The notes under the pieces: model-generated | Database searches by the model: none | Seen by the model: only the letters and a program-made list of their open reading frames with translations | Told to the model about the DNA's origin: nothing | Assembly: GCA_018268355.1 (NCBI GenBank) | Contig: JAFDWR010000001.1 | Coordinates: 1,079,858-1,143,857 of the forward strand | DNA: 64,000 nt | From: Armatimonadota bacterium | GTDB lineage: Bacteria; Armatimonadota; Fimbriimonadia; Fimbriimonadales; Fimbriimonadaceae | Direction: 5' to 3' | Translations under genes and position numbers: made by a program | Shown: piece after piece, positions 1 to 39,151 of the stretch | Layout: every line of letters starts with the position of its first letter | Position numbering within the stretch: position 1 is the first letter of the stretch

Positions 1-510
1 CCGCCACAGCCACTTACATGTTCAAAGGAGTGGAATGAGTACGTGTTTGGACTTTGTTGGTACGCGAGTAAACATACTGGTGCTCAGGGTCTATGCAACT
101 ATTACGCGTCTGCATATTACCAAATTTGCCGAAAGCCGTCCCGTGGTTGTGATACGCCACAGAACTGGGTTCCAATGGGCAAGGCCGGCATCGCACCAGA
201 ACCTTTCGATGAAGCCCTTGCTCGAGAGCAGGAAAAGAAATACTGGGAGAGTCAGGCGAGGTATGACAAGGCTCCTCCACGTTACAAAACCATCTCTGGC
301 CGACCTTGTTTCAAGATCCTGCAGCCTGAAGGCGCGACCGTCGTAGTGTTTCCTATTCCGCTTGGAGCTTGCTATGCTTGTTGTCAACGAACCTTTACTG
401 TAAGCAAGCTCATATCAGACTGCGAGTTTGACTGCTGGACCGCATTCCTAATTCTAACTCAAAATGGCATAAACCAGTTTGAGCCACCGCAGCGGATTTT
501 GGTAAAATGA
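1..510 (+). CDS. Cysteine-rich protein, C-terminal part only (probable Rhs tip)
   Basis: The reading frame is open from the first base, so the start lies outside the window; 169 residues are visible. The fragment has about 11 cysteines, including a CYACC cluster and a DCEFDC motif, which resembles the cysteine-rich tips of the Rhs cassettes that follow. No RHS core and no HExxH motif are visible in this part. Its TGA is overlapped by an ATG at 507 that runs only two codons before TAA. A lipoprotein gene starts 16 bases after the stop. I infer another polymorphic-toxin tip; an unrelated secreted cysteine-rich protein is possible. Confidence 0.6.
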   Translation, partial: PPQPLTCSKEWNEYVFGLCWYASKHTGAQGLCNYYASAYYQICRKPSRGCDTPQNWVPMGKAGIAPEPFDEALAREQEKKYWESQARYDKAPPRYKTISGRPCFKILQPEGATVVVFPIPLGACYACCQRTFTVSKLISDCEFDCWTAFLILTQNGINQFEPPQRILVK

Positions 511-1103: not shown

Positions 1104-1913
1104 ATGCTCTCCCAGTTCGACGTCTTTGCAACTGCTGGCGCTCAATACAAAGGCGTGATCCGCGAGACGGATGCGACTGCAGACGGAGCTGGAAAGATCA
1201 CGCTGGCGTTTACATCGGTGACTGACCTTGCGGCGGTTAATGGTGTCGAGATCATCCCTTACGCTGTTTACGATCAGGAGAACAGACTCACCGGAGTGGC
1301 CAACCCCGGCATCACGGCGGGTTCTCCCTCGAGGATCAACGTCGGCGGACCCAAGGTCTCAACCTACGCCGAAGATCCGGGTGCTAACGTGATCTGGGGC
1401 GAGATGGTGTGTGACAACACCGTTTCTGCGATCGACAAGTCGGGGGCAACGAATCCCGCTCCTGATGACGTCTATCGAAGTCTGCGGTGGGGTCCATGCC
1501 AGATGACGGTGGCCGAGCTCGTCCCCAGTCGCCAGTACAAGGTGAGGTTCCACTTCATCGAACCGACCTGTACGGCGGCGGGGCAGCGGGTGATGAGCCT
1601 GCTCATCAACGGTACGACGGTCAACGCTTCTTATGACATTTACGCCTCGGCGGGCGCGAGGTTCAAGGTGAACATCCAGGAGTTCCTTGCCAATGCAGAC
1701 GCTAACGGCAAGATCGTGGCCGAGACCGGTGTGATCACAAACGCACCGATCTGGTACGGGCTCGAGGTGATTGACAATACGGCGAGCACGCCAAGCGTTT
1801 CCTTGGCGACGACCTACACGTATTCCGGGGATGGTCTGAAGCGCTCTGAGGTCGCGGACGGAGTCACGACGACGCTGGTCTGGGATGGAACGGACTATCT
1901 GGGCGAGGTTTAA
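1104..1913 (+). pseudogene. Truncated Rhs protein fragment with malectin-like domains
   Basis: The frame opens right after a TAA, in the middle of a domain. Residues 1-60 look like the tail of one malectin-type carbohydrate-binding domain (FDVFATAGA). Residues ~75-225 form a second one, beginning RINVGG and containing YDIYASAGA. The last ~35 residues are an RHS/YD-type repeat (TYTYSGDGLKRSE ... WDGTDYLGEV). The TAA at 1911-1913 is in frame with the next gene, whose ATG comes six bases later, so this fragment and the RHS core at 1920 were probably one reading frame. The 5' truncation and in-frame stop suggest decay. Readthrough or a deliberate split cannot be excluded. Confidence 0.65.
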
Positions 1914-2205
1914 CTTGCAATGGCCCTAAAGACAAAGTACTACACGGCAAATGGTCAGATGCGGATGCAGCGCTCACCAGGCGATGTCCGCTCGACGCTT
2001 CTGATGCCCGACGCCCTTGGAAGTGTGACGGCCATCCGCCCTACTGACTCGACGACGGTGAAGTCCCTCACCTACACCCCATACGGCGTGGGCTCAAGCT
2101 CAGTACCTCGCTATGGCTGGGTCGGGACGTGGGGTTACCGTGCAAATCCGTACGGACGAACACCGAGCCACTACGTTCGGGCGAGGCACTACGATAGACG
2201 AAATG
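1763..2205 (+). repeat. Long direct repeat, copy A (RHS core with upstream segment)
   Basis: This segment matches 4679-5121 without indels at a constant offset of 2916 bases. It covers the end of the malectin/YD-repeat fragment, the in-frame TAA, the ATG and the RHS core. The other two cassettes (3431, 7863) share only the part that begins at the ATG. Long direct repeats of this kind allow recombination that swaps or deletes tips. Confidence 0.85.
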
Positions 2206-2822
2206 GGATATGGACAACGCGGGACCGCTACTGGCCCGGAGAGATGGCAATCACTTATGTTGATGCCATGGTAGTAACCATGACTGACCCCGCCGGAACA
2301 TATCGGTCGGTAAAGGAATGCACTTATGAATCATGCAAATATTCGAGGTGTGTTCAACGATCAACGCGTATCGAAGAGTCCCTCGGAGAACTGAGATTGA
2401 AGCTGCATAACTGTTATTTGAGTCCAGGCCGGTTGGCTCGAATCAATAGGTGTATCGCGAAGCTTGGTACCTCGACAGTGTCCAATTTGAGCAGTTGCAT
2501 TTACCATGAAACAATCAAATCTTCTTCCTCCAATTATGTCGTGACTTGTGAAACAAAGTGTAAGCTCACTAAAGACGGCAGCCGCGCGTGTGCCTGGACC
2601 GTTCCAAAGAAGGGTCAAGTCCAGATCTGTTACGATACCTATCGTGAACATTGTCACTGCAGCCATGGGCAATGCCGAAATATGCGAGTTCGTTGCTCTG
2701 ATCTACAAGATACCTTCATTCATGAGTTTGCCCATGTCTGTGGTATAGGCTCAGACGGCAAACAACCCAATGCTGCAAGTGTTGCAGCTTGCATTGATAG
2801 GGAATGTGGAATCCTAATATGA
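1920..2822 (+). CDS. Orphan Rhs-type protein with cysteine-rich HExxH tip (cassette 1)
   Basis: The protein has 300 residues. Residues 1-93 are the RHS repeat-associated core, shared almost unchanged with three later cassettes (AIRPTDSTTVKSLTYTPYG, PRYGWVGTWGYRANPYGR). A variable linker ends in TDPAG near residue 125, which corresponds to the conserved DPxG that closes RHS shells. The remaining ~175 residues are unique, with about 17 cysteines. HEFAH at residues 268-272 is a zinc-metallopeptidase signature, followed by CIDREC. The stop is overlapped (ATGA) by the next gene. A peptidase toxin tip is my inference; the cysteines suggest disulfides and an extracytoplasmic site. Confidence 0.75.
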   Translation: MALKTKYYTANGQMRMQRSPGDVRSTLLMPDALGSVTAIRPTDSTTVKSLTYTPYGVGSSSVPRYGWVGTWGYRANPYGRTPSHYVRARHYDRRNGIWTTRDRYWPGEMAITYVDAMVVTMTDPAGTYRSVKECTYESCKYSRCVQRSTRIEESLGELRLKLHNCYLSPGRLARINRCIAKLGTSTVSNLSSCIYHETIKSSSSNYVVTCETKCKLTKDGSRACAWTVPKKGQVQICYDTYREHCHCSHGQCRNMRVRCSDLQDTFIHEFAHVCGIGSDGKQPNAASVAACIDRECGILI

Positions 2823-3370
2823 GTGCCTCATTAGTCCTTGGTTGCACAGCGCTGATCGTTAGATCAAAGATTGCGCCAATCGATGTGAAAGAGTTGATCA
2901 ATATCAGCGATGCTGTGGTATTTGTCGAACGTGGAAAAACGGAGTTTGCGCCGAAACTTAGGTCCGTAATATTCTCGAAAGTAAATCCTGCGCCTCGAGA
3001 GAGTACTTTCGAGATTCAGCCAGCTCCGCAAGTTTTCGCTGGTCAACCATCTGAGATGTCCTTCTGTGGGGTCGACTCATCTGGTTTCTTGTTCTTGAAG
3101 CGCCTCAAGAATCGAAAAGGCTATTGGGCGCTTTCAAGCTATTCTCATGGGTGGATTCCCCTTATCAACGAGCAAGTCGGCTTTCGAGAATGGAAGGAAT
3201 TCAACTTAGACCAGCAGGTTCTCCAGGATAAGCTGTGGATTGGGTCTGGCGTGCTGTTTTCGACCAGGTTAAGACCACCGAAGGGAAAATTAATTAGCCG
3301 CGCCGCGATCAAACAGGAATTACTGCGAGTATATCGGCACTACGCCCGCCCAACCACCAGTAAGAAATAG
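2819..3370 (+). CDS. Candidate immunity protein of cassette 1
   Basis: The protein has 183 residues and no domain I recognise. The ATG at 2819 forms an ATGA overlap with the tip stop, so translation is probably coupled; an in-frame upstream start at 2804 is less likely. Residues start MSASLVLG, a weakly hydrophobic N-terminus. The C-terminus is basic (RHYARPTTSKK). Position and coupling are the only evidence for an immunity role. The gene has no sequence similarity that I can see to the partner genes of the other cassettes, which is expected if each partner matches a different tip. Confidence 0.65.
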   Translation: MSASLVLGCTALIVRSKIAPIDVKELINISDAVVFVERGKTEFAPKLRSVIFSKVNPAPRESTFEIQPAPQVFAGQPSEMSFCGVDSSGFLFLKRLKNRKGYWALSSYSHGWIPLINEQVGFREWKEFNLDQQVLQDKLWIGSGVLFSTRLRPPKGKLISRAAIKQELLRVYRHYARPTTSKK

Positions 3371-3430
3371 CAGAAGTTAATATCGGACTAGAGTGGACAA
3401 AAAGATGTCCAGGACAAGGGCCAGAAGCGG

Positions 3431-4345
3431 ATGACATTTAAGACGAAGTACTATACGGCAAACGGGCAGCTACGGATGCAGCGCTCACCGGGCGATGTCC
3501 GATCAACTCTTCTGATGCCCGACGCTCTTGGTAGCGTAACGGCGATCCGGCCGGCTGACTCGACGACGGTGAAGACCCTGACTTACACACCGTATGGCCT
3601 TGGCTCAAGCACAGGACCTCGCTATGGCTGGGTAGGGACCTGGGGTTACCGCGCCAATCCGTACGGACGAACACCGAGCCACTACGTAAGGGCGAGACAC
3701 TTCGATAACAGAAGTGGGCTCTGGACAACGGCAGATCCGCTTTGGCCGAGTGAATTTGCTTTTGCCTATTGCGAAGCCGGACCGGTCGCAAGTATTGATC
3801 CGACGGGCAATCGGATTCAAAATGCTGAAAAGGAGGACGACGAATGCTACAAGAAATTTCTGCTTCTCGGCAGCTGCAATAACTTTTTCCTGAAGCTGCA
3901 GTTAGAGACAGCTTGTTTTCGCTCGGGGAGTGTTCCTTGCATTCTTGCAAGAGCATCCGAAGATATTGACATCAGAACGGGTGAGTGTAAAGGCTGTTGT
4001 ACTGTTTGCTATCCCACCTGTGATGAGGCACTTAGCAAGGGTGGCGTGATGTGCGATGGCAGCAAGACGAGCGATATCCTAAGGTGCGCCAAGAAATCGT
4101 TGAAGAAGTTAGCTCCAGATAAGTTGACGGGCAAACCGCCTGAGGTAACGGAGGCTCAAAGGTGTATCAAGACTGGACTTGGCGGCAACTGTATTCCTAT
4201 CGGCAAACGATTGCACCTCACTTACAATTGCCAACCTCGAAAAGGTGCTATAAAAAAGACGGTCATTTCAGCCCTTTGTTGCCCGTGCTATAAGGACGGT
4301 ATCGTCAAAATCGTTTGCTTCAATCCTCAGGGATGCCATTCGTGA
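3431..4345 (+). CDS. Orphan Rhs-type protein with cysteine-rich tip (cassette 2)
   Basis: The protein has 304 residues. Residues 1-93 repeat the RHS core of cassette 1. The linker reads GLWTTADPLWPSEF and ends in IDPTG near residue 126. The tip of ~178 residues has about 19 cysteines, including CKGCCTVC, ALCCPC and a terminal GCHS, and is rich in lysine. Unlike the other three tips it has no HExxH, so it may act differently or be inactive. The ATG at 3431 opens exactly where homology to the other cassettes begins. The next gene overlaps its stop as GTGA. No catalytic motif is recognised. Confidence 0.7.
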   Translation: MTFKTKYYTANGQLRMQRSPGDVRSTLLMPDALGSVTAIRPADSTTVKTLTYTPYGLGSSTGPRYGWVGTWGYRANPYGRTPSHYVRARHFDNRSGLWTTADPLWPSEFAFAYCEAGPVASIDPTGNRIQNAEKEDDECYKKFLLLGSCNNFFLKLQLETACFRSGSVPCILARASEDIDIRTGECKGCCTVCYPTCDEALSKGGVMCDGSKTSDILRCAKKSLKKLAPDKLTGKPPEVTEAQRCIKTGLGGNCIPIGKRLHLTYNCQPRKGAIKKTVISALCCPCYKDGIVKIVCFNPQGCHS

Positions 4346-4665
4346 GCGCAGTTCTGATGGAGCCTCCAATCTTGATTTCGGAAGATCAAAACCTAATAGC
4401 AAGATTGCCGCTTGCTACCGCTTGCAGTTGTGATGAATTCTATCTAATGCTGGGTCGCAGAGCAGGCTTTTTTCCGGGGTTGGTGATCATTGATGGCCCA
4501 CAAGATGTGTTTGCAGGTGCTTTTTCAGGAATGATCTCTATTCTGCTTACCGATACGCCCTTACCTTGGAGTATTTGTACTTCCCAAGGAATTACGCTCC
4601 AGGCCAACCGCAATAGTCTTGAACAGATTGTTGAACTCTGCGAATTCTTCACCACCAGATGGTAA
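4342..4665 (+). CDS. Candidate immunity protein of cassette 2
   Basis: The protein has 107 residues if it starts at the GTG in the GTGA overlap (4342). An upstream ATG at 4333 is also possible. It begins VSAVLMEPP, is mostly hydrophobic and acidic, and carries the stretch FPGLVIIDGPQDVFAGAF. There is no signal peptide and no known domain. The 4-base overlap with the tip matches the arrangement in cassettes 1 and 4, and that arrangement is the basis of the call. It is followed directly by a leftover piece of RHS sequence, so the gene sits exactly between a tip and the next repeat. Confidence 0.6.
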   Translation: MSAVLMEPPILISEDQNLIARLPLATACSCDEFYLMLGRRAGFFPGLVIIDGPQDVFAGAFSGMISILLTDTPLPWSICTSQGITLQANRNSLEQIVELCEFFTTRW

Positions 4666-4678
4666 ATCCAACCGGCCC

Positions 4679-4829
4679 CGAGGTGATTGACAATACGGTA
4701 AGCACGCCAAGCGTTTCCTTGGCGTCGACCTACACGTACTCCGGGGATGGCCTGAAGCGTTCTGAGGTCGCGGACGGAGTTAGGACGACTCTGGTCTGGG
4801 ATGGAACGGACTATCTGGGCGAGGTTTAA
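4679..4829 (+). pseudogene. Rhs YD-repeat remnant ending in TAA
   Basis: This stretch encodes EVIDNTVSTPSVSLASTY and continues through TYSGDGLKRSE to WDGTDYLGEV and a TAA at 4827-4829. It is a near-copy of 1763-1913. It has no start of its own and begins abruptly after unrelated sequence, so it is a duplicated fragment. The stop is in frame with the RHS core that starts at 4836, exactly as in the first copy. Confidence 0.75.
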
Positions 4830-5121
4830 CTTGCAATGGCACTGAAGACGAAGTACTACACGGCAAATGGCCAGATGCGGATGCAGCGCTCACCGGGCGA
4901 TGTCCGCTCGACGCTACTGATGCCCGATGCACTGGGAAGCGTGACGGCCATCCGTCCGGCTGACTCGACGACGGTGAAGACCCTGAATTACACCCCGTAC
5001 GGCCTGGGCTCAAGCACAGGACCTCGCTATGGCTGGGTCGGGACGTGGGGTTACCGTGCAAATCCCTATGGGCGCACGCCGAGCCACTACGTTCGGGCAA
5101 GGCACCTCGACGGTCGAACTG
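4679..5121 (+). repeat. Long direct repeat, copy B (RHS core with upstream segment)
   Basis: This is the partner of 1763-2205, collinear and gap-free at an offset of 2916 bases, with scattered substitutions. Homology starts abruptly at about 4679 and fades after the core at about 5121. Confidence 0.85.
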
Positions 5122-5777
5122 GGATATGGATAGTTACAGACCCTTCGTGGCCCGCAGAGCTTCCATACGTCTATGGAGACTCAAATCCAGCAACAAGGAA
5201 TGATCATAGTGGACTCGGCTGTAAGCCGGATCCATGCAAAAAATGTAGAGGGATGGATGACGAAACCCTTTGCAAATGGACTAGGGCGAGCATTCCGTTA
5301 CTGCAAACAGCGGGTATCACGGGCTTTGTTGCATGCTGCTACGGCAAGAAGGTTAGTTGCTATTTTCGAAACTATGGCGTAATCGAGAAAAAGTTCGGAC
5401 GGGTGCCACCGGCGATTGATAAAGTTGTTAGGGAGTGTACAATTCGCCATGAAGATTTTCATCGGAAGCGTCCTTCGGGGTTTTGCTCGGATGGCAAAGG
5501 GAATCCAACCAATTGTGGAGCTTTCGCGTCCCCACTAGCCATACATTATAATGAAGAGTGCATTGCACATCAAATAAGTTTGGATTGCCTGCGATCAAAG
5601 TTTGAGAAGAAGTGCGCCGCATCAAAAAGTCCCCGCGACTGGAGCTGCGTAATGCTAATGAGTGAGTGTTTCTCCCTGTCTAACTACTGCGGTAACAGCG
5701 GCACCTTGACGCAGGAGAAGAAACGATATTGTTTGGAATTGCACGCTCGCATGAAGAAAGAGGGAGTTATCGTTTGA
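4836..5777 (+). CDS. Orphan Rhs-type protein with cysteine-rich HExxH tip (cassette 3)
   Basis: The protein has 313 residues. The RHS core fills residues 1-93 and the boundary motif is NDHSG near residue 127, a variant of DPxG. The tip has about 17 cysteines. HEDFH at residues 205-209 is an HExxH zinc-binding signature, followed about 35 residues later by NEECIAHQISLDC, which could supply a third ligand. The C-terminal third is lysine-rich. The stop is overlapped by TTGA, but the frame opened there runs only 16 codons, so this cassette may have lost its coupled partner. A metallopeptidase effector is inferred. Confidence 0.75.
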   Translation: MALKTKYYTANGQMRMQRSPGDVRSTLLMPDALGSVTAIRPADSTTVKTLNYTPYGLGSSTGPRYGWVGTWGYRANPYGRTPSHYVRARHLDGRTGIWIVTDPSWPAELPYVYGDSNPATRNDHSGLGCKPDPCKKCRGMDDETLCKWTRASIPLLQTAGITGFVACCYGKKVSCYFRNYGVIEKKFGRVPPAIDKVVRECTIRHEDFHRKRPSGFCSDGKGNPTNCGAFASPLAIHYNEECIAHQISLDCLRSKFEKKCAASKSPRDWSCVMLMSECFSLSNYCGNSGTLTQEKKRYCLELHARMKKEGVIV

Positions 5778-6684: not shown

Positions 6685-7524
6685 TCAGCAAAACTCGACT
6701 CCCCAGAGGTCCAGACTCGACGGAACCACCCCGTTGAACCATCGTTCAAGCTTGCGGTTTAGGGCCTCACCACTCTCTCCGAGCCATTGGGATATCTGGC
6801 TCAAAGGAACGGAATCAAAGCTGACGTGATGGTGATGTTGGACGAACACGTCTTTCGCGACATGAAGCTGTAGTCCATGGGTCCTCAGTCGCCAAGAGAG
6901 TTCGAGATCATCATTGCCAAGAAAGAGGTTCTCGTCTTGGAGCCCAATTCGGTTCATCACGTCCCTCCTGAGGGCCAGGCATAAGCCAATGAGTAGCTTG
7001 GACTCAATAGTCTGGCCCGAGAATCTCTCCGTAAGGACATCTTGGATCTCATTGAGGTGGAGATGCGGTTCCACAAAGTTGCCCACATACTGGATGCCTG
7101 CCACTCGATCACTAAGGGGCGCGACTGCTCCTACTGCTGAGCTGAAGGCGCGAACGAGCTTCTGAGTCCATCGCGGCCAAACGATTGTGTCTGGATTGAG
7201 TAGGATAAGAATCCCTCCTCTGGATGCTCTCATGCCGACATTGGTTGCCCTTGCGTAGCCCATGTTGGTTTCAAGCCTAATGATCTTCACCTCGACCGGG
7301 CCTGGATCAAGAGTAGCAACCAGATTGAGAGTGGCATCCTCAGATGCATTGTCGACGACGATCACCTCGTCACACGATCGCAGGGTGTCGAAGACGCTTC
7401 GAAGGCACTCCTGGATCGTTGGAGCACTGTTGTAGGTGACGATGATGATGGAGCAGCCAAGGATAGAGGGGGCTCCCAACTGACCCACGGTCGCACTTTC
7501 AACATATCCGGGGAGTCGTGACAT
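6685..7524 (-). CDS. Family 2 glycosyltransferase
   Basis: The protein has 279 residues from the ATG at 7524; an ATG at 7542 and an open frame further upstream exist, but the fold begins at CSIIIVTYN, so the shorter start is preferred. The GT-A signatures are visible: SIIIVTYNSAPTI at the N-terminus, DEVIVVDNASEDAT, an NPDT in place of the usual DxD region, and FLGNDDLELSWRLR, typical of rhamnosyltransferase-like GT2 enzymes of surface polysaccharide synthesis. It lies antisense between cassettes 3 and 4. It may glycosylate a surface product or be passenger cargo. Confidence 0.8.
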   Translation of the reverse strand: MSRLPGYVESATVGQLGAPSILGCSIIIVTYNSAPTIQECLRSVFDTLRSCDEVIVVDNASEDATLNLVATLDPGPVEVKIIRLETNMGYARATNVGMRASRGGILILLNPDTIVWPRWTQKLVRAFSSAVGAVAPLSDRVAGIQYVGNFVEPHLHLNEIQDVLTERFSGQTIESKLLIGLCLALRRDVMNRIGLQDENLFLGNDDLELSWRLRTHGLQLHVAKDVFVQHHHHVSFDSVPLSQISQWLGESGEALNRKLERWFNGVVPSSLDLWGVEFC

Positions 7525-7862
7525 ACCTAAAGAAGTTACCATCAAAGCAAACGTGAGGCGCGGCAAAGGGTGGGATTTCTGACTGACCGACATGAGATAG
7601 GGCCTGCCTCTTCTCGACCCCGTTGTCGGTCTTAGGCGGCGCTCGAGACAAGAGTCCAGCAGCGGATAGACAGAGCCGTCCATTTGCAGCGACAGCGCAG
7701 TTGCGTCGACAAATACCAGCACTTGCATGTTGCGCACACCAGGTCACGGTGCTGCAGGACAAACTTTCCCGGTGCGCATCCAATATTTCTCGGAAAACTG
7801 CAATCATTGGGTCGCAGGACGAAACCAGTGATACAATGAAGTGCTGGAAGGACGAACCGGCC

Positions 7863-8828
7863 ATGGCACTAAAAACGAGGTACTACACGGCAAATCGCAA
7901 GATGCGAATGCAGCGCTCACCGGGCGATGTCCGCTCGACCCTTCTGATGCCCGATGCTCTTGGCAGCGTAACGGCCATCCGTCCGGCTGACTCGACGACG
8001 GTGAAGACCCTCACCTACACCCCATATGGCCTCGGTTCGAGCTTAGGGTCTCGCTACGGCTGGGTCGGGACGTGGGGTTACCGCGCAAATCCATATGGGC
8101 GCACGCCGAGCCACTACGTTCGCGCAAGGCACTTTGAAGTTAACAATGGACTGTGGACAACAAAAGATGCTTACTGGCCCGACGAAAGTGCCATCGGATA
8201 CGCAAGTGGCTCGCCCCTAAAATACATAGATGCTAGCGGAAATGCGAAGTGTCAATCGTCCACAGCGATATGCTGTTCAAAAGCTAGTGTAGAGAGTCAG
8301 CTATTTGCCCTCAGAAACTACTGTGATCCGAATAACCAGATAAACGGCGGATGGTCAAAATGCTCAGCGCAAGAGTTTAAATCTAGTTGCTTTGCGAGCT
8401 TGAAGACCGGTGAGTTCAGTTGCGAGATAGTAAAATTGCGTTTGCAGCAGGTGATTAACGATTGCTCGTTCTTTGGGCGAGGGCAGGGGTACGCGACTGA
8501 TGAAAAGCTTGCGGGTACCCAGATTTGCTGCGAAGAAAGGGGAATATACCACGATTGTGGTATATTTTGTTGTCGACGTAACTTGAAGTTCGATCCGTGC
8601 GTCAATTACTGCATTGCCAAGCACGAGGAGCATCACAGTAGCGATTGTAGGAAAACAAGTCAATGGCAGTATGCCCGGCGTCCAGAGCCGTGTGCATATT
8701 TCGCTCAAGCTGAGTGTTTCTTCAATCTAAATGCTAAGCGTTGCGGCTTGAGCTGGGGTATGTTCACCGGTTACCAAAAATGCAAAGAAAAGGCTATGGG
8801 AGACTGCCCGCTAAGGACGAAAAAGTGA
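7863..8828 (+). CDS. Orphan Rhs-type protein with cysteine-rich HExxH tip (cassette 4)
   Basis: The protein has 321 residues from the ATG at 7863, where homology to the other cassettes begins. The frame stays open upstream to 7623, but that part has no RHS similarity and overlaps the glycosyltransferase region. Residues 1-93 are the RHS core and the boundary motif is IDASG near residue 127. The tip has about 21 cysteines (ICCS, ICCEE, CGIFCCRR). HEEHH at residues 254-258 is an HExxH motif, followed by PCAYFAQAECFF, which echoes the motif after the HExxH in cassette 3. The stop overlaps the next gene as GTGA. Confidence 0.75.
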   Translation: MALKTRYYTANRKMRMQRSPGDVRSTLLMPDALGSVTAIRPADSTTVKTLTYTPYGLGSSLGSRYGWVGTWGYRANPYGRTPSHYVRARHFEVNNGLWTTKDAYWPDESAIGYASGSPLKYIDASGNAKCQSSTAICCSKASVESQLFALRNYCDPNNQINGGWSKCSAQEFKSSCFASLKTGEFSCEIVKLRLQQVINDCSFFGRGQGYATDEKLAGTQICCEERGIYHDCGIFCCRRNLKFDPCVNYCIAKHEEHHSSDCRKTSQWQYARRPEPCAYFAQAECFFNLNAKRCGLSWGMFTGYQKCKEKAMGDCPLRTKK

Positions 8829-9724
8829 TTCTCTCCGCTCTATTGTTCCTCCAGAAGAACGCTGGCCAAGTGATAGTGTATGGCTCGGTGAATGCTAAGC
8901 ATGAACTCGTTATGACGCGAGTCGAGGTCCGGAGCGGTGTTGCCGAAAAGTGCCCAGCGGACTTGCACTTCCAGCTCAGGAACAAAGCAAAACTAGTCGA
9001 GGTCAAAGTCTCGCCAGAGGGAACGCATGCTGAAATAATCACGGACTACACGATTCCGCCGAGCAGCGAGTACTCAAGTGAATTCCAATCGCCTGAGCAC
9101 AAGCGTTTTCGTGATCTCTGGATCATGGACATACGGACGATGAAAATTACGGGTCATCTCCATCTTAGTTCAAGTTCATTTGATCTTAAGTGGACAGGCA
9201 ACAAGGCGCTTCTTGTGCCGATAAGAGGAGGAAGAGCCGTTCAATTGCTCGTCAGTCAGCATGGTAGAGTTGCAAGAGCTGGATATGTCCGCAATGATCC
9301 GTATCCGATGGCCGCTCATGCCAGAGAGGCATCAGATTTCCTGAACGGTCAAGGGTATACCTTTGCAATGACGAGTCGTGCGGGCGATTCGATAGATGCT
9401 ACTCGTGCAGACAACGTGAGCGGAGAATTGGTGGTTTCACCGGAAGGTGATCTCATTCTTGTTACTGTATTCGACAAAGATTCGCCGGGTTATGCTAAAA
9501 GCCTTTGCCTGAGGAAAGAAATGGGTACTTGGAGAAGCGAGAACGTAGCGGCTGAAAGGGTTGTTCGGTACACACTGTTTCGAGATTCATTCGTGGCCCA
9601 GGTGTATCGTTCAAGGGAGTGCTTGCTTTTTGACCGCCGAACACTTCGGGTAATATGCTCCTTTTTCTGCGATAAATTTGATATGGGCCCTCTTGCCACT
9701 CAGTCAGCATTGGCCAATCCCTAA
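8825..9724 (+). CDS. Candidate immunity protein of cassette 4, beta-propeller-like
   Basis: The protein has 299 residues from the GTG in the GTGA overlap at 8825. The N-terminus (VILSALLFLQK) is hydrophobic. The rest reads like repeated four-strand blades: VVSPEGDLILVTVFDKD, LWIMDIRTMKITGHLHL and FDLKWTGNKALLVPIRGG are typical of WD40-like or TolB-like propellers, although I cannot count blades reliably. Translational coupling to the tip suggests an immunity role. It is far larger than the partners of cassettes 1 and 2. An ordinary propeller protein that happens to follow the cassette is the alternative. Confidence 0.6.
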   Translation: MILSALLFLQKNAGQVIVYGSVNAKHELVMTRVEVRSGVAEKCPADLHFQLRNKAKLVEVKVSPEGTHAEIITDYTIPPSSEYSSEFQSPEHKRFRDLWIMDIRTMKITGHLHLSSSSFDLKWTGNKALLVPIRGGRAVQLLVSQHGRVARAGYVRNDPYPMAAHAREASDFLNGQGYTFAMTSRAGDSIDATRADNVSGELVVSPEGDLILVTVFDKDSPGYAKSLCLRKEMGTWRSENVAAERVVRYTLFRDSFVAQVYRSRECLLFDRRTLRVICSFFCDKFDMGPLATQSALANP

Positions 9725-10433
9725 CGGTCGGGAGAAGTTGTTTATGTCTAGGCCAATTAGCGCGCATCTTAGATTGTAAGTGAGCAGGCTTTCTCAGAGA
9801 ATTAACTTTGGGAGGTCTCCGACTGGGATCTCGGCAATAACTGATTCAGTATCAACGATATCTTAACTATTCTCGCATGACGAGGGTCCTTGGCTGGACG
9901 TCACGTCGCACTCTTGGTCGAAGACGAGTGCCATTCGGTCTATTCATCTTTGGACTGAGATGTTGATTTGTGTGATTTAAGCGTTTTTCGCTAAGTTCTC
10001 ACGAAACTTGCACCTTAGCTTGTACTCCAGGGGCATTAACAGAATGAGCAAGGGTTCGGTTTCGATAAAGTAGCCATTTTGAACTTTTGGCAGATCGAAC
10101 GAGTTAGCCTCTTCAGGGTTCGAGAATATGTATAGGATGGGATCGGATGGGATATCGGTAAATCATAAGTTCGGGCTAGCCTTGAGGCCCGAAGGGTGAG
10201 GCATTTGTTACGACACTAGGTATGTCGGCGGGCAGGCTTTCACAATGGTCGCATGTATGGCAGGAGTCTCATCAGGTTGAGTTCGGCAGTCAAAGGACTC
10301 GTTTCTCGTTTTCCACAGCGTCGCACAGCGCGGGATCTGGTCTTTCAAGTGTCTCTCAATTGGAGGATAAATGGAGGTCGACTAAGAGACGACAGTAGCC
10401 TCAGTTGGATGGCGGCGACGATACAGAATCCCC
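9725..10433. other. Long stretch without genes at the right end of the Rhs island
   Basis: About 700 bases hold no convincing gene on either strand. A weak hairpin is visible at 10170-10193 (7-bp stem, 10-base loop). The stretch ends at a tRNA-Val 3' fragment. It may be eroded junction sequence of an integrated element. Confidence 0.5.
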
Positions 10434-10478
10434 TTGACACTGTAGGGGTCACAGGTTCAAGTCCTGTACCGCCCACCA
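10434..10478 (+). other. 3' part of tRNA-Val(GAC), candidate attachment-site scar
   Basis: The sequence reads as a tRNA from the anticodon loop onward: loop TTGACAC (anticodon GAC at 10436-10438), 3' anticodon stem TGTAG, variable region GGGTC, T-arm ACAGG-TTCAAGT-CCTGT, acceptor strand ACCGCCC and ACCA. No matching GGGCGGT 5' acceptor strand or correctly spaced 5' anticodon stem exists upstream, so the gene is incomplete. Integrases often target this part of a tRNA, leaving the intact tRNA at the far end of the element and a 3' copy here. A terminator follows within 25 bases. Confidence 0.7.
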
Positions 10479-10499
10479 TCTTTTGGAACCTAAACGAGA

Positions 10500-10520
10500 C
10501 CGCTTATGGCGGCTTTTTTT
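10500..10520 (+). terminator. Intrinsic terminator behind the tRNA-Val fragment
   Basis: A short stem CCGC/GCGG with loop TTATG is followed by a run of seven T (10514-10520). It is placed as the terminator of the original tRNA gene would be. Confidence 0.65.
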
Positions 10521-10539
10521 GTTGTTGGGGCGTCCCGTC

Positions 10540-10603
10540 GCGCCTCTTCGAGGCCACGTCCTTCCTCGCTTCGCTCGGACTTCGCCTCGGCGCGCCGACG
10601 GGC
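10540..10603. repeat. GC-rich intergenic repeat, divergent copy
   Basis: This stretch (CGCGCCTCTTCGAGGCC ... CTCGCTTCGCTCGGACTTCG ... CTCGGCGCG) is a divergent relative of the two near-identical elements at 46497-46595 and 47125-47223, sharing the order 'gaggcc, ccttcctcgct, gctcgg, cgcctcggcgcg'. It is noncoding. Confidence 0.6.
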
Positions 10604-10670
10604 TCATTCGATGCCGGCCAATAGAAGGTCTTGCACTTTGTCATCCACATCCAGAGCGTCCGTGGCCAGA

Positions 10671-31222: not shown

Positions 31223-32092
31223 ATGTCTCGAAAGGCATTCACGCTCATCGAACTGCTCGTGGTTATCGCGATCATCGCGATCCTCGCAGCTATCCTCTTC
31301 CCTGTCTTCGCTCAAGCGAAGGAAGCCGCCAAGGCCGCTGCATGTCTCAGCAACATGAAGAACCTCGGTACGGCTACGAACATCTACCTCGCTGACTACG
31401 ACGACACGATGCCCGCTTCGGTCATCTCGGTCGCCGGTGTCAACCAGGCAGCTCAGTTCTTCTCGACTCCGGCCAACTCGCTCGGAAACGGCGGCGCCGT
31501 TCCGACCGCAGCCACGATCAACCTCCGAGCTAGCTTCTGGGGTAACGCGATCCAGCCGTACGTCAAGAACTGGGGCGTTTATCGAAACACCTCGCCGGAT
31601 TGGAACCTGTTCGCGCTTGACGCCACTGCTCTTGCTTCGCGCATCACCAGCGGCTACGCTTACAACAGCTACCTCAACTACTACAACGCCACCGGTGTTC
31701 AGTCGCCTTCGCGAACGATCCTGTTCTTCCAGGGCATGGGCAACGGTTCGATCCAGGGTTACACCTACTACTGGCCGCCGTTCATGGTGAGCTCGGGTAC
31801 GCAGACGACGGCCGTGCCGTTCATCTTCGCTCGAACCGCTCAGATCTGTCCGAACGGTCTCTACGTGTTCTCCGGTCAGCGAGACAGCCGCATCTATAAG
31901 GGTGGCTTCAACCTCGTTTACACCGACTCGAGCGCTAAGTTCACCAAGGCTGCTGCTCAGCGATCGCCGTACTCGGTCATCAACGCCGATGGTACGCCGG
32001 CTAACGGTTGGGTTTCCAACATCACCGGTCAGCCGACCGCTTGCGACAACGTCTACTGGTACTGGCACGCTCCGGATCAGGACAAGGGTTAA
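31223..32092 (+). CDS. Prepilin-like protein 1
   Basis: The protein has 289 residues. A short basic leader MSRKA precedes [19 protein letters not shown], the N-methylation and type IV pilin-like helix (E5 present). The large C-terminal domain resembles DUF1559-type pseudopilins and has the late motif [12 protein letters not shown], equivalent to the H-X9-DG region. A prepilin peptidase would cleave before the Phe; Ala replaces the usual Gly at -1. It is coupled by TAATG to a small lipoprotein gene. A surface fibre or secretion role is inferred. Confidence 0.88.
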
Positions 32093-32277
32093 TGAAGAAG
32101 AAGCTTGCATTTCTGCTCTCGATCGCCGTTGCTGTGGCCCTCATCGGTTGCGGCTCGGGTGAAGACAAGGGAGCTTCGGACACCACTCCTCCTAAGGGAG
32201 CGACGTCGGTCGGTGTGAAAGCAATCAACACCGGTGGCGGTGGTGGAGTCCAGAACTCCAAGCCGGAAGCAAACTAA
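32092..32277 (+). CDS. Small lipoprotein paired with prepilin-like protein 1
   Basis: The protein has 61 residues: lipoprotein signal [20 protein letters not shown], then a polar, Gly/Thr/Pro-rich tail of about 40 residues without a predicted fold. The ATG shares one base with the upstream stop (TAATG). The tail looks disordered. Four further genes of this kind follow prepilin-like genes in this region, so the pairing is systematic. Anchoring or assembly of the pilin-like product at the membrane is a guess. Confidence 0.8.
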   Translation: MKKKLAFLLSIAVAVALIGCGSGEDKGASDTTPPKGATSVGVKAINTGGGGGVQNSKPEAN

Positions 32278-32294
32278 GCTTCTTGATCCACGAA

Positions 32295-32332
32295 GTGAAG
32301 GTAGGTCGAAAGACCTGCCTTCACTTTTTTTG
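32295..32332 (+). terminator. Terminator after lipoprotein 1
   Basis: A 14-bp stem with one G-U pair (32295-32308 with 32313-32326) and a GAAA loop is followed by a T-run to 32332. Confidence 0.9.
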
Positions 32333-32434
32333 CGTTTGGACGGAACCACGGCACCCTTTGTGCACGTAGAGACCTATCCGGGGTGTCAGAAATGATTTTC
32401 CGGAATGATTCTATTTGGAGAGCCTTATAAAAAC

Positions 32435-33322
32435 ATGACTCGAAAAGCGTTCACGCTCATCGAGCTGCTCGTGGTGATTGCAATCATCGCCATCCTCGCA
32501 GCTATCCTCTTCCCTGTTTTCGCCTCGGCCAAGGAAGCCGCCAAGAAGACGTCGGACCTTTCCAACCTGAAGCAGATGGGAACTTCGGTTCAGCTTTACC
32601 TGGCTGACTTCGATGACACCTTCCCGCAGACGGCCGTCAACTATCTCGGCACCTGGCAGCCGAACCTTCTGTACGCCACCCCGGCCAACTGGACCCAGCA
32701 GAACGCAGTCATCCAGAACCTGTACAACTGCCACTGGTCGAACTCGCTCCAGCCGTACATCAAGAACCGCGACATGATGGTTTCCCAGGGCGGCACGGAT
32801 CGACTCATCACCGGTGCGCCCTACACCACGTCGCCGATCGCTCGATTCAAGAACAGCTATCAGATGAATGGTCTCCTGAACAGCCTCAACGCCACCGTTG
32901 TTGCTGCTCCGAGCCAGCTTCCGATCGCCGGTCACCTCCGTGGTGGCATGCGAATCGACGGTTTTGCGTCGTCGAACCCGGTTCTGAACTGCCCGCAAGG
33001 CGCAGCGCCGTGCGTTTGGCAGCCGACGACCCCGACCTGCCTTGGATCCGTCAATGGTCAGTGGAGCTCGACCCTCCTCCCCGCGTTCTCGTTCTGGGTT
33101 TTCAACCGAGGCGTGAACGTTACATTTGCTGACAGCTCGGCCAAGTTCCGACGCATGGGTGGCAACATCGCGGGTCGAACGGACTTCCGAACCGACTGGA
33201 TGTCGAACTACAACGCTCAGGGCATTCCGAACCGAGAATGGCAGGACACCAACTTCTGCCACACCCTTCTGTTCCAGCCTGACTTCGACTTCCAGAACTT
33301 CGGTATTCCGATCGAGTTCTAA
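32435..33322 (+). CDS. Prepilin-like protein 2
   Basis: The protein has 295 residues from the ATG at 32435, which gives the short MTRKA leader; an ATG at 32405 would add ten atypical residues. The pilin helix [19 protein letters not shown] is followed by a large domain with [27 protein letters not shown] and [15 protein letters not shown]. It is about 90% identical by eye to protein 3, a recent tandem duplicate. It is the only one of the six without its own lipoprotein gene; a strong terminator follows directly. Confidence 0.88.
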
Positions 33323-33347
33323 GGCGAAGAGTCTTTCGCATGACTCC

Positions 33348-33386
33348 AAGTTGGGGGTGGGCAATTGCCCGCCCCCAACTTTTTTT
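33348..33386 (+). terminator. Terminator after prepilin-like gene 2
   Basis: A ~17-bp stem (33348-33364 with 33365-33381, essentially an inverted repeat without a spacer, one G-U pair) is followed by T residues to 33386. Confidence 0.88.
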
Positions 33387-33510
33387 GCCTAGACCTTGAT
33401 GATTCAGTCATCAAGCCTTCCATTCATGCCGGAATCAGGCTTCCGGCTTGGAATTCGAGACAGCACCGTTGAGAATGGAATCACCGAGCCCTGCTCGGAG
33501 GATTTATCTC

Positions 33511-34395
33511 ATGAAACGTGCATTTACATTGATCGAGCTTCTCGTCGTCATCGCCATCATCGCCATCCTCGCGGCGATCCTCTTCCCGGTCTTCGCGAGC
33601 GCAAAGGAGTCTGCCAAGAAGACGTCTGACCTTTCCAACCTGAAGCAGATGGGTACCTCAGTGCAGCTTTACCTGGCTGACTACGACGACACCTTCCCGC
33701 AGACGGCCGTCAACTACCTCGGAACTTGGCAGCCGAACCTCCTCTACGCCACTCCGGCCAACTGGACCCAGCAGAACGCAGTCATCCAGAACCTGTACAA
33801 CTGCCACTGGTCGAACTCGCTCCAGCCGTACATCAAGAACCGCGACATGATGTCCTCCCAGGGCGGAACGGATCGACTCATCGGAGGAGCGCCCTACACC
33901 ACGTCCCCGATTGCGCGATTCAAGAACAGCTATCAGATGAATGGTCTCCTGAACAGCCTCAACGCTACGGTTGTTGCTGCACCGAGCCAGCTTCCGCTCG
34001 CCGGTCACCTCCGTGGTGGTATGCGAATCGATGGGTACGCGTCGTCGAACCCGGTTCTCACTTGCCTGGTAGGCACCGCGCCGTGCGTTTGGCAACCGAC
34101 GACCCCGACCTGCCTTGGATCCGTCAACGGTCAGTGGTCCGGAACTCTGTTCCCTCAGTTTTCGTATTACGTCTTCAACCGAGGCGTGAACGTGACGTTC
34201 ACAGACAGCTCGGCCAAGTTTCGAAGAATGGGAGCGAATATCAATGGAAGGACGGACTTCCGCACGGACTGGATGACGAATTACAATGCCCAGGGCGTGC
34301 CGAGTTCAGAGTGGCAGGACACCAATTTCTGCCACACCTTGCTCTTCCAGCCGGATTTCGATTTCCAAAACTTCGGAACTCCGGTACAGTGGTAA
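33511..34395 (+). CDS. Prepilin-like protein 3
   Basis: The protein has 294 residues from the ATG at 33511, with CGGAGG upstream; the frame extends back to 33448, but only the short MKRA leader fits prepilin processing. The helix and C-terminal domain nearly duplicate protein 2, with most differences near residues 180-240. Tyr/Trp-rich segments and several Cys ([12 protein letters not shown]) suggest a disulfide-stabilised extracellular domain. A lipoprotein gene follows after four bases. Confidence 0.88.
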
Positions 34396-34399
34396 TCCT

Positions 34400-34579
34400 A
34401 TGAAGAAGATCATCCTTTCCATTGCGGGTCTCAGCCTTCTGGGCCTCGTTCTCGTCGGTTGCAGCAAAGATGAAGCTCCTGTGAACGGAGACAACAAGAA
34501 CGCTGCCGCAAATTCCAAGAGCGCGGCTGATTCGGGCAAGGAAAAGCCGAAGGGCGAAGAGCAGTTGATGCCCAAGTAA
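34400..34579 (+). CDS. Small lipoprotein paired with prepilin-like protein 3
   Basis: The protein has 59 residues: signal MKKIILSIAGLSLLGLVLVGC, then a Lys/Asn/Ala-rich tail with a GDN triplet (VNGDNKNAAANS). The tail is low-complexity and probably disordered. The start lies four bases after the prepilin stop. The GDN triplet recurs in lipoproteins 3 and 5 of the region. Confidence 0.8.
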   Translation: MKKIILSIAGLSLLGLVLVGCSKDEAPVNGDNKNAAANSKSAADSGKEKPKGEEQLMPK

Positions 34580-34591
34580 GGAAGATCATGA

Positions 34592-34618
34592 GGCTGGCCG
34601 GGATACCGGCCAGCCATT
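34592..34618 (+). terminator. Hairpin after lipoprotein 2
   Basis: A perfect 10-bp stem GGCTGGCCGG/CCGGCCAGCC (34592-34601 with 34606-34615) with loop GATA is followed by a short ATTT. The weak T-run makes termination likely but not certain. Confidence 0.7.
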
Positions 34619-34705
34619 TCCTGAAAACGGCGACTACTACGCATTCGATTTCAAAAAAGTTCGCGCGATTTTCACATTTTTTTGCCACTGGCAAAATTTT
34701 CGCCT

Positions 34706-34711
34706 TATAAT
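34706..34711 (+). promoter_or_regulatory. -10 box of prepilin-like gene 4
   Basis: TATAAT lies 35 bases before the ATG at 34747, within GCCTTATAATGCC. Nearly the same context (GCCTTATAATGGC) precedes prepilin-like gene 5. A TTGCCA about 19 bases upstream could be the -35 element. Confidence 0.6.
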
Positions 34712-34746
34712 GCCTTCACTCAGCTTTTGCTGGGGGAGTCATACAT

Positions 34747-35628
34747 ATGCGAAAAGCGTTTACTCTCATTGAACTGCTGGTCGTCATTGCGATCATCGCA
34801 ATCCTGGCAGCCATCCTCTTCCCGGTCTTTGCATCCGCCAAGGAAGCCGCTAAGGCCGCAGCGGACCTTTCCAATGTCAAGCAGATCGGCACCTCAGCGC
34901 AGATCTACGTCACCGACTACGATGACGTGTTCCCGCAGACCGCCGTTAACTATCTCGGCACCTGGCAGCCGAACCTGCTCTATGCCACCCCGGCAAACTG
35001 GACGACGACGAACGCCGTGATCCAGAATCTTTACGCTTGCCACTTCAGCAACTCGCTTCAGGCGTATACCAAGAACCGAGACATTTTCAACTCGCAAGGC
35101 GGCACGGATCGACAGATCGTTGGTGCGCCGTACGCTTCAGCGCTGGCAACGCCAGCTAAGAACAGCTATAACATGAACGGACTGCTCAACAGCCTGAGCA
35201 CCACGGCCGTCGCACGACCGTCGCAGCTCCCGTTCATGGGCCACTTCCGAGGCGGTATGCGAATCAACGGCTATGCCACCGCAAGCCCGGTTCTTACTTG
35301 CTCTACCGGTTCGCAGCCCTGCGTGTTCGTTCCGGCATCGCCGACCTGTAGTGGTGCAAACGGAACCTGGTCGGGTCAGCTCTGGCCGCAGTTCAGCTAC
35401 TGGGTGTTCAAGCGAGGCGTCAACGTCACGTTCGCCGACAGCTCGGCTAAGTTCCGACGCATGGCCGGCAACATCAACGGTCTGACCGATTACAAGACCG
35501 ACTGGATGATCAACTATAACGCCCAGGCTCAGCCCAATGGCGAATGGCAGGACACGTACTTCTGCCACACTCTTCTCTTCCAGCCGGACTTCGACTTCCA
35601 GACCTGGGGCACCCCCTACGCCTGGTAA
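34747..35628 (+). CDS. Prepilin-like protein 4
   Basis: The protein has 293 residues. The leader is MRKA and the helix [19 protein letters not shown]. The C-terminal domain follows the pattern of proteins 2 and 3 ([47 protein letters not shown]) but is clearly diverged from both. GGGGGAG lies about 10 bases before the ATG. The paired lipoprotein gene is 238 bases downstream, further than in the other pairs, with a hairpin between. Confidence 0.88.
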
Positions 35629-35660
35629 GGACAAGTTCCTAACCTAAGACAAGGTAACCG

Positions 35661-35693
35661 CGGCCCGGTTTCTGAGAACCAGAAATCGGGCCG
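35661..35693 (+). terminator. Hairpin between prepilin-like gene 4 and lipoprotein 3
   Basis: A 14-bp stem with one G-U pair (35661-35674 with 35680-35693) and loop AGAAC has no T-run behind it. It may attenuate transcription or protect an mRNA end. Confidence 0.5.
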
Positions 35694-35866
35694 TCTCGCT
35701 CAAAAGACGAGCGACCCAAGCAAGGATCGGTACTTCAAAAAGTAAGGTGCCGACGATTAGGCTCTTCAATTGAATCTTGCCCGTCATGGTCTGACCCTGG
35801 CGGGCTTTTGTCTTGTTTCGTCGCCGGGTCTCTGCCATACTCTCACTTGATCCTCGGAGAAGCACC

Positions 35867-36031
35867 ATGAAAGCATTCTTCCTTTCCCTCGTTGCCCTCG
35901 CCCTTGCCGCCTTTGTCCTTGCCGGTTGCGGTGAAGATGATAGCGTCACCTATGGCGACAACCCCTTCGCCAAGGCGAACTCCAAGAACGCCAAGGACGC
36001 TCCCCACCAAAAGCAGCGCGCCGGTGGCTAA
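35867..36031 (+). CDS. Small lipoprotein 3
   Basis: The protein has 54 residues from the ATG at 35867: signal MKAFFLSLVALALAAFVLAGC, then a polar tail with VTYGDNPFAKANSKNAKD. The GDN and NSKNAKD stretches resemble lipoprotein 2. CGGAGAAGC upstream serves as ribosome-binding site. It lies just before nuoD, with 46 bases between, and may share a transcript with it. Confidence 0.78.
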   Translation: MKAFFLSLVALALAAFVLAGCGEDDSVTYGDNPFAKANSKNAKDAPHQKQRAGG

Positions 36032-36077
36032 CCTGCCGACGATTCCGCTCCACGCAAGGTAGATTAAGTTCAGTTCC

Positions 36078-37292
36078 ATGGCCAATCAATTCATGCCGTC
36101 GACCGACGCCATTTTCGAGAGAAAGGGCGAGAACACCATGGTCGTCAACATGGGTCCCCAGCACCCATCGACCCACGGAGTCCTCCGCATCGTTTGCGAA
36201 CTCGAAGGCGAGGTGATCGTGAACTGCAAGTGCGTCATCGGCTATCTCCACACCGGAATGGAGAAGGAAGCCGAGTATCAGCAGTATCACAAGTGCGTCG
36301 TCATGACCGACCGCATGGACTACCTAAACGCGAACGGCAACAACCTGGCCCACGCCCTCGCGGTTGAGAAGCTCCTCGGATGCGAAGTGCCCAAGCGCGG
36401 CCAATACCTTCGAGTCATCCTCGCCGAACTCAGCCGAATCGCCAGCCACTGCGTCTGGCTCGGCACCCACGGCCTTGACCTCGGGGCGATGACGCCGTTC
36501 TTCTACATCATGCAGCAGCGCGAGAACATCCTTGACATGTTCGAGATGTTCAGCGGCGTGCGAATGATGCCCTCCTGGATCGTCCCTGGCGGACTTCGCG
36601 GCGACATGCCCGAAGGCTTTGCCGAGCGGCTCAACAAGTTCCTTGAAGAGTTCCCCAAGGAGCTCGAAGTTGTCGAGAACCTCCTCGTCGGCAACCCGAT
36701 CTGGAAGGAGCGCACCTACGATGTTGGCGTGCTCACCGCGACCCAGGCGCTCGAGCTAGGTTGCTCGGGACCGATCGCCCGCGCGAGCGGCGTGGCTTGG
36801 GACCTTCGCAAGAGCAACCCGTATTCGTCGTATGACGACTTCGACTTCGAGATCCCGGTCGGGTCGCACGGCGACGTCTATGATCGCTTCCTCGTCCGCG
36901 TCGCCGAGATGAAGGAGAGCTGCAAGATCCTCCGCCAGGCCCTCGACGGTCTTCCCGAAGGACCCTGGAGCACCACCGATCGCAAGATCGCTCCTCCGCC
37001 TCGTGAAGAGCTCGACACCTCGATGGAATCGCTGATCCACCACTTCAAGCTGTACACCGAGGGCTACCACGTCCCTGCGGGTGAGGCCTATGCCGGCATC
37101 GAAGGTTCGAAGGGTGAACTCGGCTTCTACATCGTCTCGGATGGCGGCAACCGACCTTACCGCTGGCATGAGCGCCCCAGTTCGTTCATGAACCTCAAGT
37201 CGCTTGAGGTCCTTTCCATCGGCCGCATGATCGCCGACGTGATCGCGATCATCGGTTCGATCGACATTGTTCTCGGAGAAATCGACCGCTAA
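36078..37292 (+). CDS. nuoD: NADH-quinone oxidoreductase subunit D
   Basis: The protein has 404 residues. Signatures include NMGPQHPSTHGVLR, GYLHTGMEKEAE, RVILAELSRIASHCVWLGTHGLDLGAMTPFFY and GGLRGDMPEGF. NuoD, derived from the [NiFe]-hydrogenase large subunit, forms the quinone cavity with NuoB. The C-terminus ends in the canonical IDIVLGEIDR. Its stop overlaps the nuoE start by one base (TAATG). Confidence 0.97.
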   Translation: MANQFMPSTDAIFERKGENTMVVNMGPQHPSTHGVLRIVCELEGEVIVNCKCVIGYLHTGMEKEAEYQQYHKCVVMTDRMDYLNANGNNLAHALAVEKLLGCEVPKRGQYLRVILAELSRIASHCVWLGTHGLDLGAMTPFFYIMQQRENILDMFEMFSGVRMMPSWIVPGGLRGDMPEGFAERLNKFLEEFPKELEVVENLLVGNPIWKERTYDVGVLTATQALELGCSGPIARASGVAWDLRKSNPYSSYDDFDFEIPVGSHGDVYDRFLVRVAEMKESCKILRQALDGLPEGPWSTTDRKIAPPPREELDTSMESLIHHFKLYTEGYHVPAGEAYAGIEGSKGELGFYIVSDGGNRPYRWHERPSSFMNLKSLEVLSIGRMIADVIAIIGSIDIVLGEIDR

Positions 37293-37912
37293 TGAGTGAA
37301 CTCGTTCAACTTGGTGCCCCCCACGATCGTCCTCGTCCGCCGCGCGCGGATGAGCTGAACCTTCGCTTCTCGGAGCAGGGGATCCACGAACTTGAGGCGC
37401 TCAAGACGCACTACCCGGACCTGAAGTCGTGCATCCTGCCCGGACTTTGGATCGCCCAGCGGGAATATGGCGGCTTTCTTGACGGTGCGGCCATCGCCGA
37501 GGTCGCCCACCGCCTGAACCGCAGCTACGCCGAAGTCGAAGGCGTCGCGACGTTCTACACGATGTACAACACGGCCCACAAGCCGGGCAAGCACAAGCTG
37601 GAGCTTTGCACCTGCCTTAGCTGCCACCTTTGCGGCAGCTACCGACTCCGCGACTACATCAAGTCGAAGCTCGGGATCAGCCACGGCGAAACCACCGAAG
37701 ACGGTCTTTTCACGATGGAAGAGGTCGAGTGCCTCGATGCTTGCGACCGCGCGCCGCTCATGCAGGTGGGCGATCAGTATTACGGCCCCCTCGACGAAGC
37801 CAAGCTCGATGCGCTCATCGATCAGCTTCGGAACACCGAAGGCTCAACCGTGGTGAAGATGGCCGACGAGATCGTTCAAGTTCACCTGCGCGACGTCGAA
37901 CGGCACAAATAA
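37292..37912 (+). CDS. nuoE: NADH-quinone oxidoreductase subunit E
   Basis: The protein has 206 residues. Four cysteines in C-x4-C (C106, C111) and C-x3-C (C147, C151) spacing bind the 2Fe-2S cluster N1a. The thioredoxin-like fold shows VATFYTMYNT and VECLDACDRAPLMQVG. The N-terminal ~25 residues are Pro/Arg-rich. It feeds electrons between NADH and the chain together with NuoF, whose gene is 2.5 kb downstream beyond two prepilin-like genes. Confidence 0.96.
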   Translation: MSELVQLGAPHDRPRPPRADELNLRFSEQGIHELEALKTHYPDLKSCILPGLWIAQREYGGFLDGAAIAEVAHRLNRSYAEVEGVATFYTMYNTAHKPGKHKLELCTCLSCHLCGSYRLRDYIKSKLGISHGETTEDGLFTMEEVECLDACDRAPLMQVGDQYYGPLDEAKLDALIDQLRNTEGSTVVKMADEIVQVHLRDVERHK

Positions 37913-37959
37913 AGTTCGGCGAGGGGGATTTTCACCCCGCACTTTTGCATAAAGTGCCT

Positions 37960-37965
37960 TATAAT
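37960..37965 (+). promoter_or_regulatory. -10 box of prepilin-like gene 5
   Basis: TATAAT in the context GCCTTATAATGGC lies 35 bases before the ATG at 38001, the same distance as for gene 4. The leaders of the two genes also share GGAGTCATxCATATG. Confidence 0.6.
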
Positions 37966-38000
37966 GGCTCCATTCCGTCTGGAATCATGGAGTCATTCAT

Positions 38001-39130: not shown

Positions 39131-39151
39131 CCAAGCAAGGGAGAAATTTTC

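Follow-up and report, generated by a model that had tools for sequence, protein, structure and literature searches.

The window analysed here is a stretch of 64,000 nucleotides on contig C1 of its genome (G000). It opens inside an island of 18.4 kb, which runs from C1:1071935 to a fragment of a tRNA-Val(GAC) gene. The island comprises genes for a glycosyltransferase-TPR protein (GT-TPR) and a NifU-like protein, a giant RHS gene, cassettes of RHS C-termini interspersed with small ORFs, and a gene for a family 2 glycosyltransferase (GT2). RHS repeats (PF05593, E = 2.8e-104) were identified in the ORF that precedes the first 510 bases of the window, and translations of the RHS cassettes share the N-terminal sequence MALKTKYYTANGQ...DALGSVTAI. 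The small ORFs between these cassettes may have an immunity role, given their position. The ORF map places the Rhs genes to the left of the tRNA fragment, as the preliminary description of this DNA had stated. Coordinates of the features are listed in Table 1. Elsewhere in the window (31223-40090), adjacent ORFs have a common type IV pilin-like N-terminal signal and appear by eye to form a tandem DUF1559-like family.

Table 1. Features of the Rhs island and the tRNA-Val(GAC) fragment, in window positions.
Feature	Position	Strand	Basis
C-terminal part of giant RHS locus	1..510	+	ORF map; locus starts outside the window at G000:C1:1075743
Displaced RHS C-terminal cassettes	1104-1913, 1920-2822, 3431-4345, 4836-5777 (1104..5777)	+	Repeated N-terminal sequence
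Family 2 glycosyltransferase (cargo typical of these elements)	6685..7737	-	PF00535, E = 4e-24
Last RHS C-terminal cassette and following ORF	7623..9724	+	ORF map
Right-end (attP arm) region of class A tRNA-Val element	10337..10403	+	nhmmer profile
Right (P) arm direct repeats, degenerate copy of GGTCTCTCAA-x-GGTCTCTCAATTGGAGGA (presumed arm-type integrase binding sites)	10339..10367	+	Alignment with ten element ends
tRNA-Val(GAC) 3' half and TC, attachment-site core	10435..10480	+	46/46 identity to intact gene
Flank TCTTTTGGAACCTAAACGAGACCGCTTATGGCGGCTTTTTTT, left-arm-like motif and terminator hairpin	10479..10520	+	Left-arm comparison; terminator scan and fold

The fragment and the two bases that follow it match G000:C3:95512-95467 on the minus strand at every position in a BLAST search of the same genome (E = 1.7e-17), and the match is therefore not due to chance. 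This is the 3' end of the genome's only intact tRNA-Val(GAC) gene, identified by ARAGORN (G000:C3:95469-95543, minus strand). The 44 tRNA bases of the fragment (10435-10478, with CCA ending at 10478) and a further TC are identical in the two copies. The match begins one base 5' of the anticodon, within the loop (TGACAC), and spans the T arm and the acceptor strand; the first base of the loop is T in the fragment and A in the intact gene. Bases before 10435 are unrelated to a tRNA 5' half, which is missing. The earlier account of a tRNA 3' fragment that extends from the anticodon loop to CCA and lacks its 5' half is thus borne out. Neither ARAGORN nor Rfam (at the gathering threshold) calls a tRNA at the fragment, as is expected for half a gene. 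A sequence upstream of 10435, CAGTTGGATGGCGG, has a faint resemblance to a D arm and was considered as a decayed 5' half. It was rejected in this role because it aligns with the arms of mobile elements.

We identified at least 19 tRNA-Val 3' halves without a 5' half in 15 of 85 Fimbriimonadaceae genomes, a count that takes in the window copy and three imperfect copies (61 relatives were searched, then 85 genomes). These recurrent halves break in the anticodon loop at TGACAC. The DNA to the left of most of them sorts into three types of conserved end, and that of the window belongs to the first, which we call class A; class A tRNA-Val(GAC) elements are a group defined in this analysis. In an alignment of ten element ends from other genomes, class A ends consist of two direct repeats of GGTCTCTCAA, a GAGAC motif, a further spacer and the core. 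The window has such a right arm before its core. Its second arm repeat is an exact match (10351-10367) and the only match in the window when up to 3 mismatches are allowed. An nhmmer profile built from nine class A ends, with the window left out, matches the arm region with 28.5 bits (E = 3.1e-7) and has no second match in the DNA fetched from the same genome.

Both the match of the core and that of the arm are well beyond chance, and neither depends on the other. Together with the recurring 3' halves, the arm match upholds the proposal that this is an integration end of a tRNA-targeting element. An ordinary tRNA pseudogene left by segmental duplication, with no tie to mobility, would also be half a gene without a function of its own. 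This origin is hardly credible, given the same loop break in at least 18 other truncated copies and the nature of the preceding DNA, which is not the upstream region of a tRNA gene but a conserved arm of an element.

Intact elements of this kind were identified in relatives. Contig JADLGZ010000010 (G085:C10) of the Fimbriimonadaceae MAG SJ46, which belongs to a genus other than that of the window, carries an intact tRNA-Val(GAC) gene followed by tandem elements of about 11.4 and 11.2 kb and the start of a third. The order is tRNA-Val, left arm, tyrosine integrase, NifU-like gene, giant RHS gene, glycosyltransferases, right arm and tRNA-Val 3' half. The NifU-like and giant RHS genes occur in the first two elements, and family 2 glycosyltransferases in the first and third. 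The integrase, of about 400 amino acids, begins about 350 nucleotides past CCA in each of the three copies. Intact left arms consist of approximately TTTTGAACCTAAA, a terminator and then GGTCTCTC repeats near +57. This layout corresponds to that of the islands catalogued by Islander (Hudson et al. 2014, PMC4383910) for which a tRNA gene is the attachment site and the crossover falls in the anticodon loop.

The same integrase family adjoins tRNA-Val(GAC) in G011, G076, G084, G085 and G086, and lies within 5 kb of it in G074; the integrases in G011, G076, G084, G086 and G074 are about 60-90% identical. Named records with this family are mostly Fimbriimonadaceae or Armatimonadota MAGs, and one is labelled Methanoregulaceae. 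A virus origin of the integrase was considered and set aside, as no relative was found in IMG/VR.

Like the elements on G085:C10, the window has the tRNA-Val(GAC) core, the right arm and cargo of NifU-like, RHS and glycosyltransferase genes, with a NifU_N-like gene immediately before RHS as in G085. Unlike the window copy, the G085 copies are in tandem, with an integrase and full left arms. Identity to the cargo of the G085 and G086 elements is 44-45% for GT-TPR, 40-44% for RHS and 41% for GT2; the GT2 of the window is likewise 41% identical to the glycosyltransferases of the G085 elements alone. Cargo is weaker evidence than the core or the arm. G018 has similar RHS and GT-TPR genes within a tRNA-Ala(TGC) island that contains a related serine recombinase, so cargo alone does not assign the island of the window to the tyrosine-integrase element.

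The element in the window lacks a left end. The preliminary description had noted that the window has no integrase; this is correct, and a class A integrase remnant is absent from it as well. A search of the whole genome with the G085 integrase gave a best match of E = 0.03 and 24% identity, located elsewhere, and no member of the class A family; the genome's two PF00589 genes lie at 604 kb on C1 and 32 kb on C4. There is no integrase inside or to the left of the island, and no core with a left arm (TTTTGAACCTAAA, terminator and GGTCTCTCAA repeats). The same description had placed the other end further left, beside an intact tRNA-Val(GAC) gene and an integrase. A search leftwards revealed neither: the left neighbour of the island is a tRNA-Ala(TGC) gene with serine recombinases, and the 1.09 Mb of contig to the left of the fragment contain no intact tRNA-Val(GAC). 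The fragment and the intact gene lie on different contigs and do not bound one stretch in the same orientation. Even if C1 and C3 abut in the orientation needed, the two are at least 1.19 Mb apart.

A complete island still in place, with its intact tRNA-Val and integrase further left, would fit the orientation of the tRNA half as a far end and the Rhs genes at its left. It is refuted on the present assembly by the lack of that tRNA over 1.09 Mb, its sole copy being on C3, and of a matching integrase in the genome; only gross misassembly could rescue it, and we regard it as extremely improbable. At the intact tRNA-Val(GAC) locus on C3 we found neither a class A arm nor a further tRNA fragment. 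The fragment is a decayed, orphaned element end that has lost its left end, because the intact tRNA-Val(GAC) is on another contig and the genome lacks a class A integrase. Directly downstream of the intact gene (G000:C3:86055-95424, L037) is a type I restriction-modification locus, whose genes were named by eye from sequence and order rather than by domain search.

We conclude that the fragment is very probably the right-end attachment site of an integrative element at tRNA-Val(GAC) that has since decayed. A tyrosine integrase would recombine within the anticodon loop of the tRNA gene. On entry, attP would supply a new 3' half, so that the tRNA gene stays whole and the old 3' half is displaced to the far end of the element. 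The window fragment would be this far end, with the right arm and the Rhs and glycosyltransferase cargo still before it. The left arm, the integrase and the intact tRNA-Val next to them were presumably lost later through rearrangement or deletion, which left a remnant that is probably immobile and that may have come to lie beside the serine-recombinase island now on its left. The degeneracy of the arms in the window and the missing integrase count against this explanation.

The tRNA-Ala(TGC) gene lies 31.8 kb from the fragment. The serine-recombinase island starts inside this gene and encodes two serine recombinases, a helicase-like protein and an MmeI-type restriction enzyme (C1:1058464-1071529). 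As this part lies to the left of the Rhs part, the island is composite. The entire 31.8 kb could alternatively be one serine-recombinase element, in which the tRNA-Val end is an internal relic acquired with the Rhs cargo. The recombinase reads into tRNA-Ala in both G000 and G018, and both islands contain RHS and GT-TPR genes. We consider this unlikely, as the cargo is immediately adjacent to the tyrosine-type right arm, with the same order and orientation as in G085, and a search on the right of the island for a tRNA-Ala fragment that would mark the serine-recombinase end gave no significant match.

The recombinase at this locus (G000:C1:1058418-1060017, L034) belongs to a family of large serine recombinases (also loci L263-L288 and L291) whose genes end inside or next to a tRNA 3' half on the opposite strand. 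Depending on the genome, the tRNA is tRNA-Ala (TGC, GGC or CGC), tRNA-Glu, tRNA-Gln or tRNA-Trp. Recombinases that are 78-92% identical to the G000 copy occur at different tRNA-Ala isoacceptors with the same following sequence. Integration into tRNA genes by serine recombinases has been called rare (PMC3218068). Two family members (L268, G081:C290; L271, G010:C1 at 623 kb) lie beside only a tRNA-Ala(CGC) 3' half, from anticodon stem to CCA, which suggests that the attachment site of these recombinases, too, includes a tRNA 3' half.

To the right of the fragment, a short terminator-like hairpin (10500-10512) is followed by a run of T that ends at 10520. A scan of 400 bases revealed no other such hairpin (0.4 expected in shuffled sequences; fold z = -1.6), and the terminator proposed at this position is plausible but weak. 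Beyond it is a GC-rich palindromic stretch (10521-10610; GAGGCCACGTCC..GGACTTCGCCTC) that is possibly a repeat family. The right flank had been described as GC-rich backbone. The rise in GC content is real (about 0.48-0.52 to the left of the fragment versus 0.56-0.65 to the right), but the flank may not be plain backbone, as its first 40 or so nucleotides past CCA are similar to the left arms of class A elements (E = 0.004 in a small test set, in which none of six native flanks matched).

This resemblance raises the possibility that the site is a junction of right arm, core and left arm (an attP or the joint of tandem elements), and that a second element at the right has been lost except for about 40 nucleotides. 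The sequence GGAACCTAAA and a terminator lie directly after CCA, as in the left arms of G011, G076 and G085. A strict motif (GAACCT/AGGTTC within 32 bases of CCA) follows 16 of the listed intact tRNA genes. The only fragments that have it are the window copy and two others, and both of the others have another cassette or element at their right; this distribution suggests a junction between two elements. On the other hand, the GGTCTCTC repeats found near +57 in intact left arms and any integrase remnant are missing from the window, the score is weak for so small a set, and some junctions within arrays (G012, G085) lack the strict motif. We consider a lost second element quite conceivable, if somewhat short of an even chance.

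Alternatively, the right flank could be native DNA from downstream of tRNA-Val(GAC), with a rearrangement inside the element having moved the intact tRNA and its upstream DNA to C3. In support, G018 and G031 have dnaX downstream of tRNA-Val(GAC) and in the same relative orientation, within 24 kb of the fragment and within 42 kb of the tRNA, respectively, and an ortholog of the window's MBL/rhodanese gene lies about 0.1 kb past a terminal tRNA-Val fragment in G083. Both genes are distant from tRNA-Val in most other genomes, and in relatives the tRNA-Val and tRNA-Ala loci show mixed and weak synteny with the right flank. The C3 locus shares a gene upstream of tRNA-Val with G003 and G032 and another downstream with G012, as if native on both sides, and the flank is more like a left arm than like native flanks. 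Such a rearrangement is possible, although we would not expect it.

Islands targeted to tRNA genes are a known kind. As in islands catalogued by Islander, the 3' tRNA fragment in the window is oriented as at a far end and the crossover falls within the anticodon loop, and in relatives there are tandem arrays in which every island has one fragment and one integrase. The window differs in that its site is orphaned, with neither intact tRNA nor integrase at the other end. Tycheposons and the additive flexible islands bounded by tRNA fragments that have been discussed for Methylophilaceae (PMC10872708) are likewise islands of cargo that lie at tRNA genes, have a tyrosine recombinase and contain repeated tRNA ends within an island. 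Their hosts and cargo are different, and the likeness is one of description. We found no description of tRNA-Val elements of Armatimonadota or Fimbriimonadaceae in the literature searched, which is no proof of absence. As far as that literature goes, the new aspects are the occurrence of such elements in Fimbriimonadaceae and of one arm type at different tRNAs.

The class A arm type is common to different tRNA cores. In addition to 3' halves of tRNA-Val(GAC), it precedes tRNA-Val(TAC) 3' halves in G012, which has three in a row, and in G018, as well as tRNA-Pro 3' halves in G018 and G065. Three more 3' halves downstream of the intact tRNA-Val(GAC) in G012 (G012:C9:33529-37361, L071) bound cassettes of about 0.9-1.8 kb. 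These encode toxin-antitoxin-like genes (nucleotidyltransferase/HEPN-like and HicA-like by eye) and no integrase. A rather speculative reading, which we think more probably wrong than right, is that the arm sequence would define a family of tyrosine-integrase elements with constant arm sites and a changing tRNA core. Integrase-free cassettes with such ends, as in G012, could then move in trans, and the window would contain a single worn-out docking site, part of a composite island that had used a serine recombinase at tRNA-Ala as well.

A tRNA fragment beside an island is no proof that a whole element is still present. The element whose end remains in the window is a possible route by which the Rhs island and the glycosyltransferase genes entered this genome. 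Rhs and glycosyltransferase cargo travels across Fimbriimonadaceae on tRNA-targeting elements and, if the reading of constant arms and changing cores is true, tRNA 3' halves would serve the whole family as common docking sites for Rhs, toxin-antitoxin and defence cargo.
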